Assembly: GCA_002839605.1 (NCBI GenBank)
Contig: PGYK01000001.1
Coordinates: forward strand, 248,001-312,000
DNA from: Methanomicrobiales archaeon HGW-Methanomicrobiales-3
GTDB taxonomy: Archaea > Halobacteriota > Methanomicrobia > Methanomicrobiales > Methanospirillaceae
Reading direction: 5' to 3'
DNA length: 64,000 nucleotides
Shown here: piece by piece, positions 13,863 through 22,267 of the stretch
How positions within the stretch are numbered: position 1 is the stretch's first letter
Layout: the number at the start of each line of letters is the position of its first letter
Position numbers and translations under genes: made by a program
Notes under the pieces: generated by a model
Told to the model about the DNA's origin: nothing
The model's input: only the letters and a program-made list of their open reading frames with translations
The model's database searches: none

Positions 13863-15113
13863 TTACGCAGCCGGTGCTTCCTTCCCAAACGACCAGAACA
13901 ACCGCTGGTACACCCGGGAAAAGGGCGTCCGTTCGAGCAGGAAGACCATCACCGAGCAGATGAGGATGCTTTGGAAGATCACGATGAAGACGATGTCCTG
14001 GATGCCCTGACCCACTGCAATACCTGCCTGAAGGGGAATTGATGCGAGGACTGCTGCGGCAAGCCCCTTTGCCTGCATCACGGCAATGATCGAGGCATCC
14101 GATTTGGGAATGGTCCGTGGGATGGTGAGCCAGACGATGACGATCCGGGCAAGATAGGCAGCAACCGTGATCGCCGCACCCATGATAAAGATCTCGATGT
14201 ACGTGAACCGGATCGAGATCCCGATATAGATGAAGAAGAAGGTCTTCAAAAGCGTCACAAGCTGGGCAAAGAAGATGGTCTCCATGGGAGAGAGTTCGAC
14301 CTGCCGGTCCTCATCTGCGAGGAAGGGCAGGATCTTCTCAACCCGGAAATAATGGAGGTTGCCGAGCGTGACACCGAGCGCCAGCGCAGCAATGGCTCCC
14401 GAGAACCCCAAAAGGCTCACAAACCCAAAGACAATGAAGACGAACGCCGGGGTGATGAAGATACTCTTGATACTGGCGATCTTGTGGTAGATCAGCGACC
14501 ACCCGACCCCGGCAATCACCCCGATAGCGATAGCGGCGAAGAACGAGAAGAAGAGGTTGCCGAGCAGGTAGCCGACATCGAACTCGTTGAGGTTCATGAA
14601 GTTGATAAGCGCGATGAGCAGGACAATGCAGAGCACATCGCTGATGGCTGATTCGAGCGCAAGGATGGCCTTGGTATCTTTTTTCAGGCTTAAGTATTTG
14701 GTAAACGGGATAACCACAGCAGAGGATGTCCCGCCGAGGATTGCGCCAAGAAGGCAGGACTCGATCACGGTGAAACCTGCAAGATACTTCATGATGACGA
14801 TGCAGATGAGCGTCATGACGATAAAGTTTGCAAGTGCGATTGCCAGCGTTCCTTTCATTGCCTTTCGCAGGGCTTCAAGGGTGATGTGAAGGCCGCCTTC
14901 AAAGAGAATGATGGCGAGCGTGACCATGGTAAAAAGTGGTCCGGCAACCCCGAAAGCTGCGGGTGTCACAAGACCCAGGAACGGCCCGATAAAGATCCCG
15001 ATGGCCATTAAAAAGAGCACATCGGGGATCTTGGTGATCGCAAAGAACCGGGAGAGGATGTTTCCTAAGAAGATGAGCAGACCTAAGAAAAGGACCGTGA
15101 CTGCTGCATCCAT
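13863..15113 (-). CDS. Cation/proton antiporter (CPA family, NhaP/Kef-like)
   Basis: 416 residues, nearly all membrane (about 12 helices), with the Na+/H+ exchanger fold. An early segment reads FLMAIGIFIGPFLGL. ILFEGGLHI corresponds to the conserved FxxG motif, and ILGGTSSAVVIPF and LALESAISDV to the ion-binding helices. No RCK domain is present. It exchanges Na+ or K+ for protons at the cytoplasmic membrane. It lies downstream of mscS and ablAB on the same strand, in keeping with a role in osmotic or pH balance. Confidence 0.85.
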   Translation of the reverse strand: MDAAVTVLFLGLLIFLGNILSRFFAITKIPDVLFLMAIGIFIGPFLGLVTPAAFGVAGPLFTMVTLAIILFEGGLHITLEALRKAMKGTLAIALANFIVMTLICIVIMKYLAGFTVIESCLLGAILGGTSSAVVIPFTKYLSLKKDTKAILALESAISDVLCIVLLIALINFMNLNEFDVGYLLGNLFFSFFAAIAIGVIAGVGWSLIYHKIASIKSIFITPAFVFIVFGFVSLLGFSGAIAALALGVTLGNLHYFRVEKILPFLADEDRQVELSPMETIFFAQLVTLLKTFFFIYIGISIRFTYIEIFIMGAAITVAAYLARIVIVWLTIPRTIPKSDASIIAVMQAKGLAAAVLASIPLQAGIAVGQGIQDIVFIVIFQSILICSVMVFLLERTPFSRVYQRLFWSFGKEAPAA

Positions 15114-15240: not shown

Positions 15241-16317
15241 TCACGCCTCTTTGCCGTTACCGCTCTCTGGCCCCCGCATATGGATGTCGACCTGTTTGAA
15301 CGGGATCTCGATTCCCTCTTCCCTGAACCGTTCATCGATCCGGACATTGATCCAGTCCTGTGCGTCCCAGAGGTGATCGTAGTTATCCGTGTAGAGGATC
15401 AACTGGCCGTTTAAGCTCGATTCACCGAATTCGAGGAAATAGACCGATGGTTTTGGGTCCGGCACTGCCCAGGGGGTCTTCTCGATGACCTCGTGTGCGA
15501 TCTCGAGAAGGATCTGCTTCACCCGCTTGATGTCGCTGCCGTACGCGACTGCAAAGGGGATCCTCACTTTCATCTTGACATTCGGCTGGGCGTAGTTGAT
15601 GGTGACGTTCGAGGTGAGCTTGGAGTTGGGGATGGTTACGATCTGGTAATCCAGTGTCTTGATCCGGGTACTCCGCGGCCCGATGCTGATGACGTCGCCG
15701 AAGTAGGTGTCATACTTGATCCGGTCGCCCACCTTGAAGGGTTTATCCAGCGTTATGATCGCCCCGCCAAGGAAGTTGCCGATGATCTCCTGTGCGGCAA
15801 GGGCAAGGGCGATGGCACCGATTCCGGCCCCGGCCAGCATCGGGGTAACATCGATCTCGAATTCCGACAAGATGAGCATGAGGGCAACAAACCAGATGAG
15901 GTATTTGGCAAGCACCTCAAGGAGCGGGAGGAGTTGGTCATCGAAATCCGTATCGGTCTTGGATGCCAGCCACTTCCCGTACGTGGTGATGAAATTGTAA
16001 CTGAACGCCGAGACGATCCAGGCACCGATGAGGATGAAGAAGGTGTTGAAGAACTGGTAGCCGTGGATCTCCATGCCGCCAACGGTCCAGTTCATGGCCT
16101 CCGGCTCGATGACAAATGCGGTCAGGGCGATATATGCCGAAGCTGCCAGGATCGTGACAATGAGTGGTTTTCCGATGGCAAGGATGACGATATCGTCAAG
16201 CAGGGTATCGGTCTGGTCTGCTTTTTTCTGCAGCCAGCAGACAATCGCGTGGGCGACACCTGCCGCAACAAGCCCGGCAGCAATGGTGAGCAGGGCATAG
16301 AGATAATTGGGTTCCAT
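15241..16317 (-). CDS. mscS: MscS-family mechanosensitive channel
   Basis: 358 residues. Four or so N-terminal membrane helices (YALLTIAAGLVAAGVAHAIV and onwards) lead to the pore helix and conserved beta domain (AGIGAIALALAAQEIIGNFLGG, FKVGDRIKYDTYFGDVISIG, IVTIPNSKLTS). It releases solutes on hypo-osmotic shock. I place the start at ATG 16317, 6 bases after GGAGG; longer TTG or ATG starts at 16332 and 16323 leave no room for that site. It lies 53 bases after ablB, which couples osmolyte synthesis to emergency release. Confidence 0.9.
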   Translation of the reverse strand: MEPNYLYALLTIAAGLVAAGVAHAIVCWLQKKADQTDTLLDDIVILAIGKPLIVTILAASAYIALTAFVIEPEAMNWTVGGMEIHGYQFFNTFFILIGAWIVSAFSYNFITTYGKWLASKTDTDFDDQLLPLLEVLAKYLIWFVALMLILSEFEIDVTPMLAGAGIGAIALALAAQEIIGNFLGGAIITLDKPFKVGDRIKYDTYFGDVISIGPRSTRIKTLDYQIVTIPNSKLTSNVTINYAQPNVKMKVRIPFAVAYGSDIKRVKQILLEIAHEVIEKTPWAVPDPKPSVYFLEFGESSLNGQLILYTDNYDHLWDAQDWINVRIDERFREEGIEIPFKQVDIHMRGPESGNGKEA

Positions 16318-16370
16318 TGACATCCTCCACAAAAGGTTCGGGTTTTTTATTGATTTGCCGGTGTCCGGGC

Positions 16371-17207
16371 TTATAATTTCCGGTACCAGACGTTCATGCT
16401 CTCCATCGATCCGCTGATGTTGGTGTTGTTAGGCAGCATTCCCCCGAACTGGTACCCCGCCCCGACAAATACCGCATTGATCGGCCGGAAGATCGCCCGG
16501 GCGATCGTGTAGGAGAGCTGGATTCCTTCCTGTTTCATATCCGCCTCCATGGCACGCAGGAGGATGCCGGCAAAGCCACGTCCCCGGAAGAGCGGGTTCG
16601 TTGCAAAGTCGGTCACCTCGATATTCCGGTTCTCAGAATCTATCTCGCAGGATGCCACGGCAGCCAGCATATGGGATTTTTTAATAACAAAATACCGGAT
16701 ATTTTCCGTCATGGTCTTGCGGATATATTCCGAATCAAAGACCGGAAACGGGTAGGTTTCGAACACCAGACGATACAGGGAGGCGATATCGTCCGCATCG
16801 TCCGCGTGTCCGTTCACCAGGGAAAAATCCTCCGGTATCTCGTGAGATGACCGCTCGCCGGCATACCCGGACACCTCACTGAGCACATCAGCAAGCTCCC
16901 TTGCATCATGAGGTGTCGCCCGTGCAGGGTCCCCGTATTTTGCCATGAATACGGCAGGTTCTGTACCTTTATAGAAGAACGGGACCGTTGCCTCAACGGT
17001 ATAGCCGGCAGTGGCAAATATCTCCTGTCCGGATGCCGGCACCTTTGCAAAGATCTTGGTGTACCCCTCTTTCTGTGCAAGGTCGTCTGCATACCTTATG
17101 ATATCCTGGCAATCCCCCGGCGCGATTTTCATAAGATACACCCGGTTGTTGTAATGACCGTGCTGAAGAAGACTGTTTTTATAACGCAGGACGGTATCAC
17201 TCTGCAT
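16371..17207 (-). CDS. ablB: Beta-lysine N6-acetyltransferase
   Basis: 278 residues. Acetylates beta-lysine to N-epsilon-acetyl-beta-lysine, a compatible solute of methanogens. The C-terminal half is a GNAT fold ([20 protein letters not shown] is the acetyl-CoA binding segment). ATG 17207 sits inside the last codons of ablA (8-base overlap ATGCAGAGTGA reading into the ablA stop) with GGAGGT just upstream, so translation is coupled. Confidence 0.92.
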
Positions 17208-18657
17208 CGTCCGACCTCCGTTCAAGCCGGTCATTGTTCTCGGGGATCAGGGTTGTTGTCTCATCGTAATCGGCAAGGAGTTTTGCCACTCCGACAATTT
17301 TTGATTCGTCAGCACGATTGATGTTGAGCTGGAGCTTACAGGCGATACAGTCGCCATCGCAGGTGATATGGTCATACTGTTCCGGTTCCTGGTACGTGCA
17401 GATCATGCCCTCGTAATTGCGAAGCACGACCTTGTGCACCGACCAAGTCAGGAGATAGTTGGGGAAGACCGGAATTTTGCCCCCGCCGCCCGGTGCATCG
17501 ACCACGTACCGGGGGATTGCAAAGCCGCTGGTATGTCCGATCAGGTTCTCCATGATCTCGATGCCTTTCGATACCGGGGTCCGGAAATGGCTGATCCCCT
17601 CCGAGAGATCGCACTGGTAGAGGTAGTACGGGCGGACGCGGTTTTTCACCAGCTGGTGGACGAGCTCCTTCATGATCCTTGGGCAGTCGTTGATGCCTGC
17701 CAGCAGGACCGACTGGTTCCCGAGCGGGATACCGGCATCGGCAAGTTTTGCCACTGCAGCCTCTGCGGATGCCGTCATCTCCTTGGGATGGTTGAACTGC
17801 ATGTTCACCCAGAGCGGGTGATGCTTTTTCAAGACGGCCACGAGGCTGTCGGTTATCCGGTACGGCAGGACAACCGGCACCCGGGACCCGATACGGATTA
17901 CCTCTACATGCGGGATGGCCCGAAGCTCGGTTAAGATCCAGTCAAGGTAATCATCGCTGAGCATGAACGGGTCTCCCCCGGAGAGGAGGACATCCCGGAT
18001 CTGCGGGTGGTTGCGGATATATTCGATCCCCTGCAGGATCTCATCGCGGTCAGGAATTGAATCCACGTCACCCACTTTCCGTTTGCGGGTGCAGTGCCGG
18101 CAGTACATGGCACAGGTGTTGCTGATGAGGAACAGAACCCGGTCCGGGTAGCGGTGGGTGATGCAGGAGCAGGGGCTGTCTTTGTCCTCTGCAAGCGGGT
18201 CGGACAGTTCGTAGTGTTCGACAATCAGCTCTTTGGGTGAAGGTAACGCCTGCCGGAAGATCGGGTCGTTCTTATAATCGTTCACATCGATGAGCGAGAG
18301 ATAGTACGGGGTGATGCTGAACGGAAACTTTTGAATGGTCTCTTCGAGGCGCTCCCGCTCGGCAGGATCGAATGTTATCCCGAGGAGCTGCTGGAAGGTA
18401 TCGATGTCACGGACAACGTGCCGGATCTGCCACCGCCAGTCTTTCCAGTATTCCGCACCATCACCGGGTTCGGTATTTTTCTGGATACGGGAAGGATCCC
18501 CGGCAGTCTCTGCTCCCTGGGAGTGACCTTTCAGGATCGATATCAGGTCCTTAACCGTTGTTTTTACCTGTCCCCGCAAATGCCTGAGAACCTCGGCAGG
18601 ATCCCCCGATGGAGATATCTGCCGGGCTCTGTCTGGGGTGCCGGAGGTTGCAGTCAT
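17197..18657 (-). CDS. ablA: Lysine 2,3-aminomutase
   Basis: 486 residues. A radical-SAM, PLP-dependent enzyme that turns lysine into beta-lysine. The cluster motif is CAMYCRHC. The two acidic residues that bind the lysine side chain in the clostridial enzyme are present in QCDLSEG and [10 protein letters not shown], where the Lys binds PLP. A C-terminal Cys group (CDGDCIAC) matches the zinc site of the family. The N-terminus has an extra 60 or so polar residues. It is transcribed with ablB and follows a second aminomutase-like gene by 15 bases. Confidence 0.93.
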
Positions 18658-18672
18658 CTGAATATTCCCCCG

Positions 18673-19800
18673 TTAGAACAACCACATCATCTTTTTTGGC
18701 TGGAGATCGGTAACCGCATGATGGTAATCATCGAACCACCGTGCAACGGGGTTACTCTTGAAGACCATGAATTTCCCGATGTTTGCGGGGTCGGCCGCCT
18801 GGTGGTACCGCATGAAGACGTGCCCGGCGGTCTTTCCCACCATCTCGATCTTGCCGGTTGCATGGGACATGACAAAGCGGGCACGTTTTGCAAGGCCCGA
18901 GCAGGCCTGCCATGACTTCTGGATCACCTCGTACGATTGCTCAACCGGGACCTGGAAGAGCAGGTTGCCGGTTGCGGGCCGGCACTGGAAGACATAATAC
19001 GGCGAGATGCCGGCAAAGGAGACCTGGCGGAAGAGCGAGGTTAAGGTATCCGCATCGCTGTTGACCCCGTTTAAGATCGGGGTCTGGTTGACCACAATAA
19101 CGCCCGCGTTGTTGAGCGCCTCGGCTGCTTTTATCGAGACATCCGTGAGTTCGCGGGGGTGGTTGAAGTGTGCCATTAAGTAAATCCGCTTCTCCGGCGT
19201 GCTGTAGCGGGAGAGGACCGTGACCAGTTCAGGGTCGGCCAGGATCCGGTACGGGTTATAGGCAAGCATTTTGCTGCCCATCCGGATGATGTTGACATGC
19301 GGGATCTCCCTGAGTTCCTTTAAGATCGATTCGATCCGCTTTGTATCGAGCATCAGGGAATCGCCCCCGGTCATCAGGACGTTCGTTATCTCCTTATGTT
19401 CGCGGATATACTCGATGTTTGCAGAAACGTCCTTTATCGCTTCCCGCTCGCAGCTCATGAAGAGGCGTTTTCTGAAGCAGAAGCGGCAGATGCCGGCACA
19501 GACATCGGTGACCAGTAAAAGGCCGGTCTGGTCATATTTGTGCTGGAGGCCGGGAAGTTTTGTGTAATCTTTTTCTTTCGAAGGATCGGCACAGCCGCCT
19601 CCGTTGAGCTCCCGCTCGTCGGGGATCACGATCTTGCGGATCGGGTCATGGCGGTCTTTCCAGTCAATGAGCGAGAGATAGTAATCATTGGACCGGAACG
19701 GGAACTTGTCCGTTACCGACTCCATCGTCTCCCGCTCTTTGGGGGCGAGCCCGACAAGATTGTCAAGCTCAGCTATTGATGTTAGGTATCTGGGGTTCAC
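18673..19800 (-). CDS. KamA-family radical SAM aminomutase, probably not lysine-specific
   Basis: 375 residues, the first gene of the ablAB operon. The radical-SAM motif CAGICRFC and the PLP lysine in SHATGK (Lys317) are intact. The lysine-binding Asp pair is gone: QCD is replaced by QCRPA (Arg274), and the second site reads VMSHATGK without an Asp. The C-terminal zinc Cys group is also absent. In known glutamate 2,3-aminomutase, as I recall, the same two positions are Lys and Asn, so beta-glutamate synthesis is a good guess; beta-glutamate is a methanogen osmolyte. Start GTG 19800 has GAGGTGA upstream. Confidence 0.8.
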   Translation of the reverse strand: MNPRYLTSIAELDNLVGLAPKERETMESVTDKFPFRSNDYYLSLIDWKDRHDPIRKIVIPDERELNGGGCADPSKEKDYTKLPGLQHKYDQTGLLLVTDVCAGICRFCFRKRLFMSCEREAIKDVSANIEYIREHKEITNVLMTGGDSLMLDTKRIESILKELREIPHVNIIRMGSKMLAYNPYRILADPELVTVLSRYSTPEKRIYLMAHFNHPRELTDVSIKAAEALNNAGVIVVNQTPILNGVNSDADTLTSLFRQVSFAGISPYYVFQCRPATGNLLFQVPVEQSYEVIQKSWQACSGLAKRARFVMSHATGKIEMVGKTAGHVFMRYHQAADPANIGKFMVFKSNPVARWFDDYHHAVTDLQPKKMMWLF

Positions 19801-19831
19801 TAGTCATCACCTCGTGTTTTTTGGGTGGGCT

Positions 19832-20123: not shown

Positions 20124-20639
20124 TTATCCCCGCCGCCCGGCCCACGAGCGGTACTCATCGGTGGCATCGTGCATGTCTTCCCAGAGCCATGCCATCCGGT
20201 CAAGGAACCAGAGTTTCCCGGAATAGACAAGTGCCATCCCAAGCACGGTTGGCCAGAGATCGAAGAAGATGACCCCCCAGAATATAAAGAGCATCCCAAT
20301 CCCGGAGATCGCTGAGAGGATGTTGGGGGCGGTCCGGTGATGCACCGGTACCGGGACGGTATCCCGGTTCAGCCAGATCCGCTCGCCGAACACGGCCTTT
20401 GAGGCCCAGGAATTAAACGATCGCGGTGCCGGAAAGATCCGGGGATTGTACCAGGTCCAGAGGAGGGCAAGGGCCACCGGGATGAGGGCATACCACCCCA
20501 GCCAGAGCCGGCTCCAGAATGCAAGGATGAGGATGGGCAGCACGGTATTGCGCAAGGCAACGCTCCACGGGTTGGCGTGCCGGAGCCAGGTCTCGTCATC
20601 CAGCGCAAACGCGCCGGCTATCCTTCGTTCAAGGGTCAT
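20124..20639 (-). CDS. Conserved membrane protein (DUF6653-like)
   Basis: 171 residues from ATG 20639; the longer frame upstream is non-conserved. Reads MTLERRIAGAFALDDETWLRHANPW in two parts, then membrane helices (VLPILILAFWSRLWLGWYAL, IPVALALLWTWYNPRIFPAP, ILSAISGIGMLFIFWGVIFF) and ends DMHDATDEYRSW. It resembles a family I recall as DUF6653; function is unknown. It is divergent from malQ with about 130 bases between starts. Confidence 0.6.
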   Translation of the reverse strand: MTLERRIAGAFALDDETWLRHANPWSVALRNTVLPILILAFWSRLWLGWYALIPVALALLWTWYNPRIFPAPRSFNSWASKAVFGERIWLNRDTVPVPVHHRTAPNILSAISGIGMLFIFWGVIFFDLWPTVLGMALVYSGKLWFLDRMAWLWEDMHDATDEYRSWAGRRG

Positions 20640-20770
20640 TTGATTCCGGTTCGACCTGTTTGTATAATAGCATCGTGCATAAGCGATGCGTGTACCAGGA
20701 ACCTGAACTGGCGGGGATAGCTTTTTACCGTTTCCAACCGGCATCTGATGTGCTGGAGAGATGGTCTGAA

Positions 20771-22267
20771 ATGAAACAACGGGGGAGCGGGATACTCCTG
20801 CACATCTCATCCCTGCCGTCACCGTACGGCATCGGGGATGTTGGGCCGGCGGCCTGCCGGTTTGTGGATTTCCTTGCAGCCACCGGGCAGAAATACTGGC
20901 AGATCCTGCCCCTGTCCGTGACCGATCCCGCTCATGACAACAACCCGTATCACAGCATCTCGGCATTTGCCCATAACCCCCTGTTCATCAGCCCGGAACT
21001 GATGGCAGCGGACGGGCTCATTGACGCATCCGATATTGCAAATCCCCCGGATTTTCCTGGTTCCCGGGTCGATTTTTCAGCCGTCATCCCCTACAAGGAA
21101 GCGCTCTTTTCCCACGCATACCGGCGGTTCAGTCACGGTGGGGACCGGCAGGAGTATGACCGGTTCTGCACAGAGAATGCGGGATGGCTTGACGATTTTG
21201 CCCTCTTCTCCGCCATCCGGTCAGATCGGCCGAATCTTGCCTGGAACCAGTGGCCGGACGAGCTCAAAAACCGTAACCCTGCGGCACTCGCCTCGGAACG
21301 CGAACGGCTGCATGACGCGTTCGAACGCACCCGTTTCCTCCAGTTCGTCTTTATCAGCCAGTGGGAGCGGCTCAGGGCCCGATGCAGGAATGCCGAAATC
21401 TCGCTGGTTGGCGACATCCCCATCTACGTGGACCACGACAGTGCAGACGTGTGGCGTTACCCGGAATATTTCAAACTCGACAGCGAAGGCAACCCCACGG
21501 TTGTGGCAGGCGTTCCCCCGGATTATTTCAGCACAACCGGCCAGCTCTGGAACACCCCGGTCTATTCCTGGGATGCCCTGAAATCCGATAATTTCTCCTG
21601 GTGGGTCCGGCGCCTCGGACACACTCTGTCGCATGTGGACATTGTGCGGATCGATCATTTCCGGGGACTGGTCGCCTGCTGGGAAGTCCCGGCCGGCTCC
21701 TCGTCGGCAGCGGGAGGCAGCTGGGTTCCCGTACCTGCCAACGAACTCCTCCCCGCGTTCACACGGGCATTTCCCCGCCTGCCGGTCTTTGCCGAAGACC
21801 TTGGCATCATCACCCCGGATGTTCATGAGGTGATGCAAAAATTCGGGATCAAGGGCATGAAAGTGCTGCTCTTTGCCTTCGAGGACGGGTTTCCTGATAC
21901 GCCGTACCTGCCCCACAACGTCATCCCGGAGTGCTACCTCTACACCGGTACCCATGACAATGCCCCGGTGCGGGGGTGGATTGAGGAGGAGGCAACCGCC
22001 AGCCATCGCGCCCGGATGCACCAGTACTTTGGCCGCGACCTTTCCGTTAAGGAAGCGAGCCAGGTATTTATCCGGCTTGCGATGTCAACCGTGGCTGATA
22101 CGGTTATCATCCCCATGCAGGACCTTCTCGGGCTCGGGGCAGAGTCCCGCATGAACCGGCCCGGGACGGACCGGGGGAACTGGAAGTGGCGGTTTACCGA
22201 TACGCACCTGACACCGGAGATCAGGAATTCCCTGCAAAGCATGACTGCCGCGTATGCACGGGACTGA
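20771..22267 (+). CDS. malQ: 4-alpha-glucanotransferase (amylomaltase)
   Basis: 498 residues, GH77. Begins MKQRGSGILLHISSLPSPYG, the usual GH77 start; the open frame back to 20660 is not conserved. Catalytic residues are the nucleophile Asp in VRIDHFRG, the acid/base Glu in FAEDLG and the Asp in TGTHDN. It transfers glucan chains in glycogen or maltodextrin metabolism. No other glycogen genes are nearby. Confidence 0.93.
   Translation: MKQRGSGILLHISSLPSPYGIGDVGPAACRFVDFLAATGQKYWQILPLSVTDPAHDNNPYHSISAFAHNPLFISPELMAADGLIDASDIANPPDFPGSRVDFSAVIPYKEALFSHAYRRFSHGGDRQEYDRFCTENAGWLDDFALFSAIRSDRPNLAWNQWPDELKNRNPAALASERERLHDAFERTRFLQFVFISQWERLRARCRNAEISLVGDIPIYVDHDSADVWRYPEYFKLDSEGNPTVVAGVPPDYFSTTGQLWNTPVYSWDALKSDNFSWWVRRLGHTLSHVDIVRIDHFRGLVACWEVPAGSSSAAGGSWVPVPANELLPAFTRAFPRLPVFAEDLGIITPDVHEVMQKFGIKGMKVLLFAFEDGFPDTPYLPHNVIPECYLYTGTHDNAPVRGWIEEEATASHRARMHQYFGRDLSVKEASQVFIRLAMSTVADTVIIPMQDLLGLGAESRMNRPGTDRGNWKWRFTDTHLTPEIRNSLQSMTAAYARD

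Follow-up and report, generated by a model that had tools for sequence, protein, structure and literature searches.

Described aminomutases and the locus in the window

Glutamate 2,3-aminomutase (Eam) is reportedly known from the work of Ruzicka and Frey in 2007 (cited in PMC9105233). In lysine 2,3-aminomutase (KamA/AblA), two Asp residues bind the lysine, whereas Lys and Asn replace both in glutamate aminomutase (SFLD paper, PMC3965090), a published difference that an earlier note on the DNA studied here had also given. The same paper flagged unannotated clusters in the subgroup as potentially new functional families.

We analyzed a stretch of 64,000 nt (the window) from Methanomicrobiales archaeon HGW-Methanomicrobiales-3 (PGYK01000001.1, positions 248,001-312,000, forward strand). 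A gene encoding a KamA-family protein with Arg274 in a QCR motif (hereafter the R274 protein) is followed in the same-strand run by ablA, ablB, an MscS gene and a Na+/H+ exchanger gene:

19801..19820 (-): ribosome-binding site region, GAGGTGAT, just upstream of the GTG start of the R274 gene
18673..19800 (-): aminomutase-family gene encoding the R274 protein; 375 aa, KamA-family radical SAM/PLP protein, R274 and S312-H313 replacing Asp293/Asp330
17197..18657 (-): ablA, lysine 2,3-aminomutase; TIGR03820 at 774 bits (cut-off 525), LAM_C present, Asp293/Asp330 retained
16371..17234 (-): ablB, beta-lysine N-acetyltransferase; TIGR03827 at 316 bits (cut-off 205)
15241..16332 (-): mechanosensitive channel, MscS type; Pfam MS_channel domains
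13863..15113 (-): Na+/H+ exchanger family transporter; PF00999 at 121.9 bits, last gene considered in the run

The R274-gene stop is 15 bp from the ablA start, ablA and ablB overlap by 38 bp, and the MscS gene is located 38 bp downstream of ablB. Based on their profile scores, the two genes after the R274 gene encode a true AblA and an AblB, in agreement with the earlier description of an acetyl-beta-lysine operon. Comparison of the R274 gene with its congeners gave dN values of 0.12-0.15 and dS values of 0.9-1.8 (dN/dS about 0.1); this is an intact gene subject to purifying selection and not a relic.

Upstream of the operon, a gene encoding a DUF6653 protein (20124-20966, minus strand) partly overlaps an opposite-strand frame (20660-22267, plus strand) that resembles 4-alpha-glucanotransferase. 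Both frames probably begin further downstream than this.

Family assignment

The general KamA family model (TIGR00238; 214.1 bits, cut-off 199.2) was the sole curated model passed by the R274 protein, which scored below the cut-offs of all functional models: lysine 2,3-aminomutase (TIGR03820; 222.5 bits, cut-off 525.4), glutamate 2,3-aminomutase (TIGR04368; 225.6 bits, cut-off 650), arginine 2,3-aminomutase (TIGR04468; 213.3 bits, cut-off 600), AblA_like_2 (TIGR03822; 204.9 bits, cut-off 396.25) and EpmB (TIGR03821; 179.5 bits, cut-off 369.3). The LAM_C domain (PF12544) was found in the neighboring AblA and not in the R274 protein. Judged by these profiles, the protein belongs to the KamA family and is a predicted radical-SAM/PLP aminomutase.

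Each described relative shares some features with it. The catalytic cysteines, the equivalents of Arg134 and Lys337 and the overall fold are those of KamA/AblA (TIGR03820; solved structure 2a5h), whereas Asp293, Asp330 and LAM_C are lacking. Eam has the same radical SAM/PLP fold, a positive residue at position 293 followed by Pro, Phe at position 290, and a substrate that, like the one predicted here, is anionic; however, the R274 protein has Arg rather than Lys at 293, and its 330 column is deleted, with S312-H313 instead. EpmB (YjeK) is likewise a radical SAM/PLP protein with CFR after the cysteines, but it falls in a separate clade, and an EpmB identity was ruled out by the score, the pocket and the tree. 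The arginine 2,3-aminomutase BlsG, also a KamA-family member, similarly has no Asp at 330 but retains Asp293.

Catalytic and pocket residues

The reference for the alignment was the solved lysine 2,3-aminomutase 2a5h, in whose chain C125, C129, C132, R134, D293, D330 and K337 were checked. C101/C105/C108 of the R274 protein align to the cluster cysteines C125/C129/C132, K317 aligns to the PLP lysine Lys337, and R110 aligns to Arg134, the carboxylate-binding residue. R274 falls on Asp293, and the Asp330 column is a gap, with Ser312-His313 lying in a hairpin that is one residue shorter (VMSHATGK). The alignment thus reproduces what had been read directly from the open reading frame at 18673-19800 (-), namely an intact CxxxCxxC motif and PLP lysine, a change from QCD to QCR, and a VMSHATGK stretch with no Asp.

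AlphaFold predicted the structure of the R274 protein with confidence throughout (pLDDT 94, pTM 0.91). The best PDB match of this model was 2a5h (E about 1e-30), which was also the only solved relative recovered by sequence search; an AblA model intended for comparison was too poor for use (pLDDT 69).

We aligned 92 subfamily members with 40-80% identity to the window protein. C101, C105 and C108 are invariant among them, and R110, R274, P275, G278, S312, H313, G316 and K317 are each found in 92/92. Since R274, S312, H313 and K317 never vary, the R274/S312/H313 pocket is not due to chance. An inactive relic or regulatory pseudo-enzyme might be suspected from the loss of the lysine-binding residues and the LAM_C domain, but we regard this as extremely improbable in view of cysteines, R110 and K317 that are invariant across phyla, a model that is confident throughout, and the low dN/dS. 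A pseudogene was ruled out by dN/dS and residue conservation.

Column 293 holds Arg in 39/39 subfamily tree representatives, Lys in 8/8 glutamate-aminomutase-like sequences and Asp in 11/11 lysine enzymes. At column 294, Pro occurs in all 39 subfamily representatives and in 6/8 glutamate-aminomutase-like sequences, compared with Leu in the lysine enzymes, and column 290 is Phe in both of the former groups and Tyr in the latter. When we compared columns conserved within each group, four non-conservative states were common to the R274 subfamily and the glutamate aminomutases and distinguished both from the lysine enzymes: Tyr226, Phe290, Pro294 and a positively charged residue at 293. All of these except Tyr226 cluster in the five-residue segment that holds position 293. 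The states at 290, 293 and 294 support an anionic side-chain group as the ligand of the pocket. At column 330, sequences that score as glutamate 2,3-aminomutase have Asn, Ser or Thr. The second pocket residue of the R274 protein is not the Asn of the known glutamate aminomutase, and the hairpin there is shorter, which is a point against glutamate as the substrate.

Phylogeny and distribution

Archaeal and bacterial R274 representatives formed one clade (support 100/100) on a long stem (1.19), apart from both the lysine aminomutases and EpmB (YjeK); the tree check proposed earlier thus placed the protein with neither group. The R274 family is therefore separate from both. A duplicate of lysine aminomutase was ruled out by score, pocket residues and tree.

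The Eam yardstick sequences comprised one above the TIGR04368 cut-off (L229; 716 bits) and several at 608-638 bits (L230, L231 and L238-L242). Free trees grouped them with the arginine aminomutase BlsG (98/88 and 97/82) and not with the R274 family, whereas a constrained union of the R274 family and Eam was not rejected (AU p 0.35 and 0.44). The R274 protein resembles the glutamate-aminomutase sequences in the Arg/Lys-Pro segment. With a score of 226 bits, where the cut-off is 650, and with these tree results, it is not a demonstrated orthologue of Eam.

In the host's order, 110 of 150 genomes had a match, about 100 of them at the R274 family's own score level. Across the phylum, the family was present in 75/295 genomes, and no canonical glutamate aminomutase above the cut-off was found in the 295. 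About 40 of 101 Thermotogota genomes also carry it. A scan of named genomes returned >500 related loci, the best 80 of which (50-78% identity) belong to methanogens, Nitrospinota, Planctomycetota, KSB1, Desulfobacterota, Aquificota, Kosmotogales and others. In most genomes the R274 gene stands as a single gene, and among the subfamily loci compared it usually does not adjoin ablA. These data replace the earlier view of a paralogue in the operon that has lost residues: the protein belongs to a deep, widespread subfamily and is neither a recent paralogue nor a decayed ablA copy.

In about 35 of the 150 genomes of the order, the R274-family protein is the sole KamA-family match, with no AblA, and the R274 gene is thus independent of ablA. 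This bears on whether the protein might be an additional lysine 2,3-aminomutase that contributes to the pathway for acetyl-beta-lysine, for instance under low-salt conditions. Such a role would suit a gene that precedes ablA by 15 bp within one same-strand run, in an order that recurs in at least five other genomes, and a predicted overall fold like that of 2a5h; however, both lysine-binding Asp residues are missing, Arg lies where the lysine amine would lie, the score is 222 bits against a cut-off of 525, and the protein so often occurs in genomes that lack AblA. We consider a second lysine enzyme very improbable.

Genomic context in relatives

The order R274 gene-ablA-ablB recurs in Methanoregulaceae and Methanospirillum. 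In a relative (L033), ablAB is absent beside the R274 homologue, which is flanked by a Na/H exchanger and a universal-stress protein on one side and an MscS channel on the other. At two bacterial loci (L161 and L133), the same gene clusters were found, with a GT20 trehalose-phosphate synthase, a TreT-type trehalose synthase and a trehalose phosphatase upstream of the R274 homologue. The R274 homologue of Paenibacillus (L226) stands alone, preceded by a promoter that matches the consensus perfectly (TTGACA-17-TATAAT), a c-di-AMP riboswitch (80.5 bits) and a terminator. Searches of 64 other bacterial loci and of the window gave neither Na+ nor c-di-AMP riboswitches. In Dehalobacter, an osmolyte ablA is controlled by tandem c-di-AMP and Na+ riboswitches, and the Na+ class has been linked to both ablA and eam (PMC9337991). 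The MscS/exchanger, trehalose and riboswitch contexts support an osmotic role independently of the pocket, in line with the role that the earlier note had assigned.

At another locus (L034, genome G089), ablA lies downstream of the R274 homologue and a short frame of 89 aa occupies the expected position of ablB; the acetyltransferase may be missing or decayed there.

We found no partner gene conserved across phyla beside R274 homologues, which fits a solute that is made in a single step. The protein might instead not act on a free amino acid at all, serving in a modification pathway like that of EpmB or catalyzing a different PLP-using radical reaction. Its deep separation from the characterized clades (stem 1.19), the ATP-grasp peptide ligases that adjoin some KamA relatives, and a widespread single-gene occurrence compatible with many functions would agree with this; on the other side, the EpmB score is under half of the cut-off, no gene for elongation factor P was noted in the vicinity, and the osmotic context appears in three unrelated settings. 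On balance, we view a role of this kind as improbable.

Proposed function

With moderate confidence, we propose that the R274 gene encodes a radical-SAM/PLP 2,3-aminomutase of a separate, functionally unassigned KamA subfamily that serves osmoadaptation, most likely by converting glutamate to beta-glutamate. In the predicted reaction, PLP on K317 would hold the substrate amino group as an aldimine, and a 5'-deoxyadenosyl radical generated at the C101/C105/C108 cluster would initiate the 1,2 shift. R110 would grip the alpha-carboxylate of the substrate, while another negatively charged group, located where the side chain ends, would be held by R274 with help from S312/H313. A 2,3-shift on aspartate would simply yield aspartate again, so this amino acid makes little sense as the substrate; L-glutamate, which would give beta-glutamate, is the simplest dicarboxylic candidate. 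Formed under osmotic stress, the product would serve as a compatible solute without the action of any further enzyme. Of the earlier proposal of an acidic substrate, most likely glutamate, the acidic part agrees with the observed pocket (with Arg at 293 where the glutamate enzymes have Lys), whereas glutamate itself, like the chemistry and the accumulation of the product, is what we infer from the conserved residues, the family and the osmotic context.

A different substrate is unlikely, although it has a real share of the probability: R274 could bind the corresponding group of alpha-aminoadipate, glutamine (giving beta-glutamine), alanine (giving beta-alanine) or another anionic amino acid. 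The conserved pocket fixes a likely positive charge and not the exact ligand, the D330 region is unlike that of known glutamate aminomutases, and beta-glutamine is a known methanogen osmolyte. However, the Phe-x-x-(Lys/Arg)-Pro segment specifically matches the glutamate aminomutases, an invariant Arg is not needed to bind a neutral side chain, and in most genomes the gene stands as a single gene with no recurring partner.

That methanogens use beta-glutamate as an osmolyte has been known since about 1990. MJ0400, one of two genes once named for its synthesis, was later assigned to aromatic amino-acid synthesis. A review (PMC1224877) names no confirmed complete route to beta-glutamate in methanogens and proposes a hydroxyglutaryl-CoA route, for which MJ0800 and MJ0400 are named by personal communication; the reassignment of MJ0400 weakens this proposal. 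According to the same review, glutamate aminomutase was excluded by early NMR work as the source of methanogen beta-glutamate, which argues against the glutamate reading; the review's discussion centred on Methanothermococcus, which belongs to another order. Methanogenium cariaci and M. anulus accumulate beta-glutamate (PMC6958431). Since Methanogenium belongs to the same order as the host (based on taxonomy) and the phylum sample has no canonical glutamate aminomutase, this accumulation favors glutamate. In Methanoculleus bourgensis, NMR detected mainly betaine and acetyl-beta-lysine (PMC12776343), which counts against glutamate because the genus carries the R274 family (M. sediminis, L104); betaine suppresses other solutes in another methanogen.

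A broader reading is tentative, and we think it may well be wrong: the R274 subfamily would be a glutamate 2,3-aminomutase that evolved a second time, independently, and makes beta-glutamate as an osmolyte; it would be the missing synthase of Methanomicrobiales and possibly the source of much marine-sediment beta-glutamate. The subfamily itself spans methanogens, Nitrospinota, Planctomycetota, Thermotogota, Desulfobacterota, Aquificota and Bacillota, and many bacteria and archaea may make beta-glutamate as a protectant through this enzyme. If so, the beta-glutamate question could be tested with a single gene and a single assay, and a function in osmotic adaptation could be assigned to hundreds of proteins that are labelled only KamA family or, wrongly, lysine 2,3-aminomutase. 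The Paenibacillus enzyme would then be a second kind of beta-amino-acid mutase to be controlled by c-di-AMP.

KamA proteins beside ATP-grasp genes

On an accessory plasmid of Sinorhizobium meliloti (L225, 4559-8382), a KamA protein with 38% identity to the R274 protein is encoded between two LAL_C2 ATP-grasp amino-acid ligases. It has the same Arg-Pro and MSHxTGK pocket and falls in the same 100/100 clade. This protein is labelled lysine 2,3-aminomutase, yet both lysine-binding Asp residues are absent. Based on its position between the two ligases, it probably serves peptide synthesis.

ATP-grasp genes also accompany other KamA proteins. A 908-aa open frame (L231, 1486-4209, minus strand) fuses an ATP-grasp_3 domain to a glutamate-aminomutase-like protein, and an ATP-grasp gene abuts the gene for a 523-aa KamA protein at another locus (L163, 2492-5462, minus strand); this pairing suggests that a beta-amino acid may be ligated into a small peptide. 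On a Streptomyces plasmid (L235, 2798-6338), a KamA protein is encoded two genes downstream of a PGM1-type peptide ligase, possibly as part of another beta-amino-acid peptide cluster.
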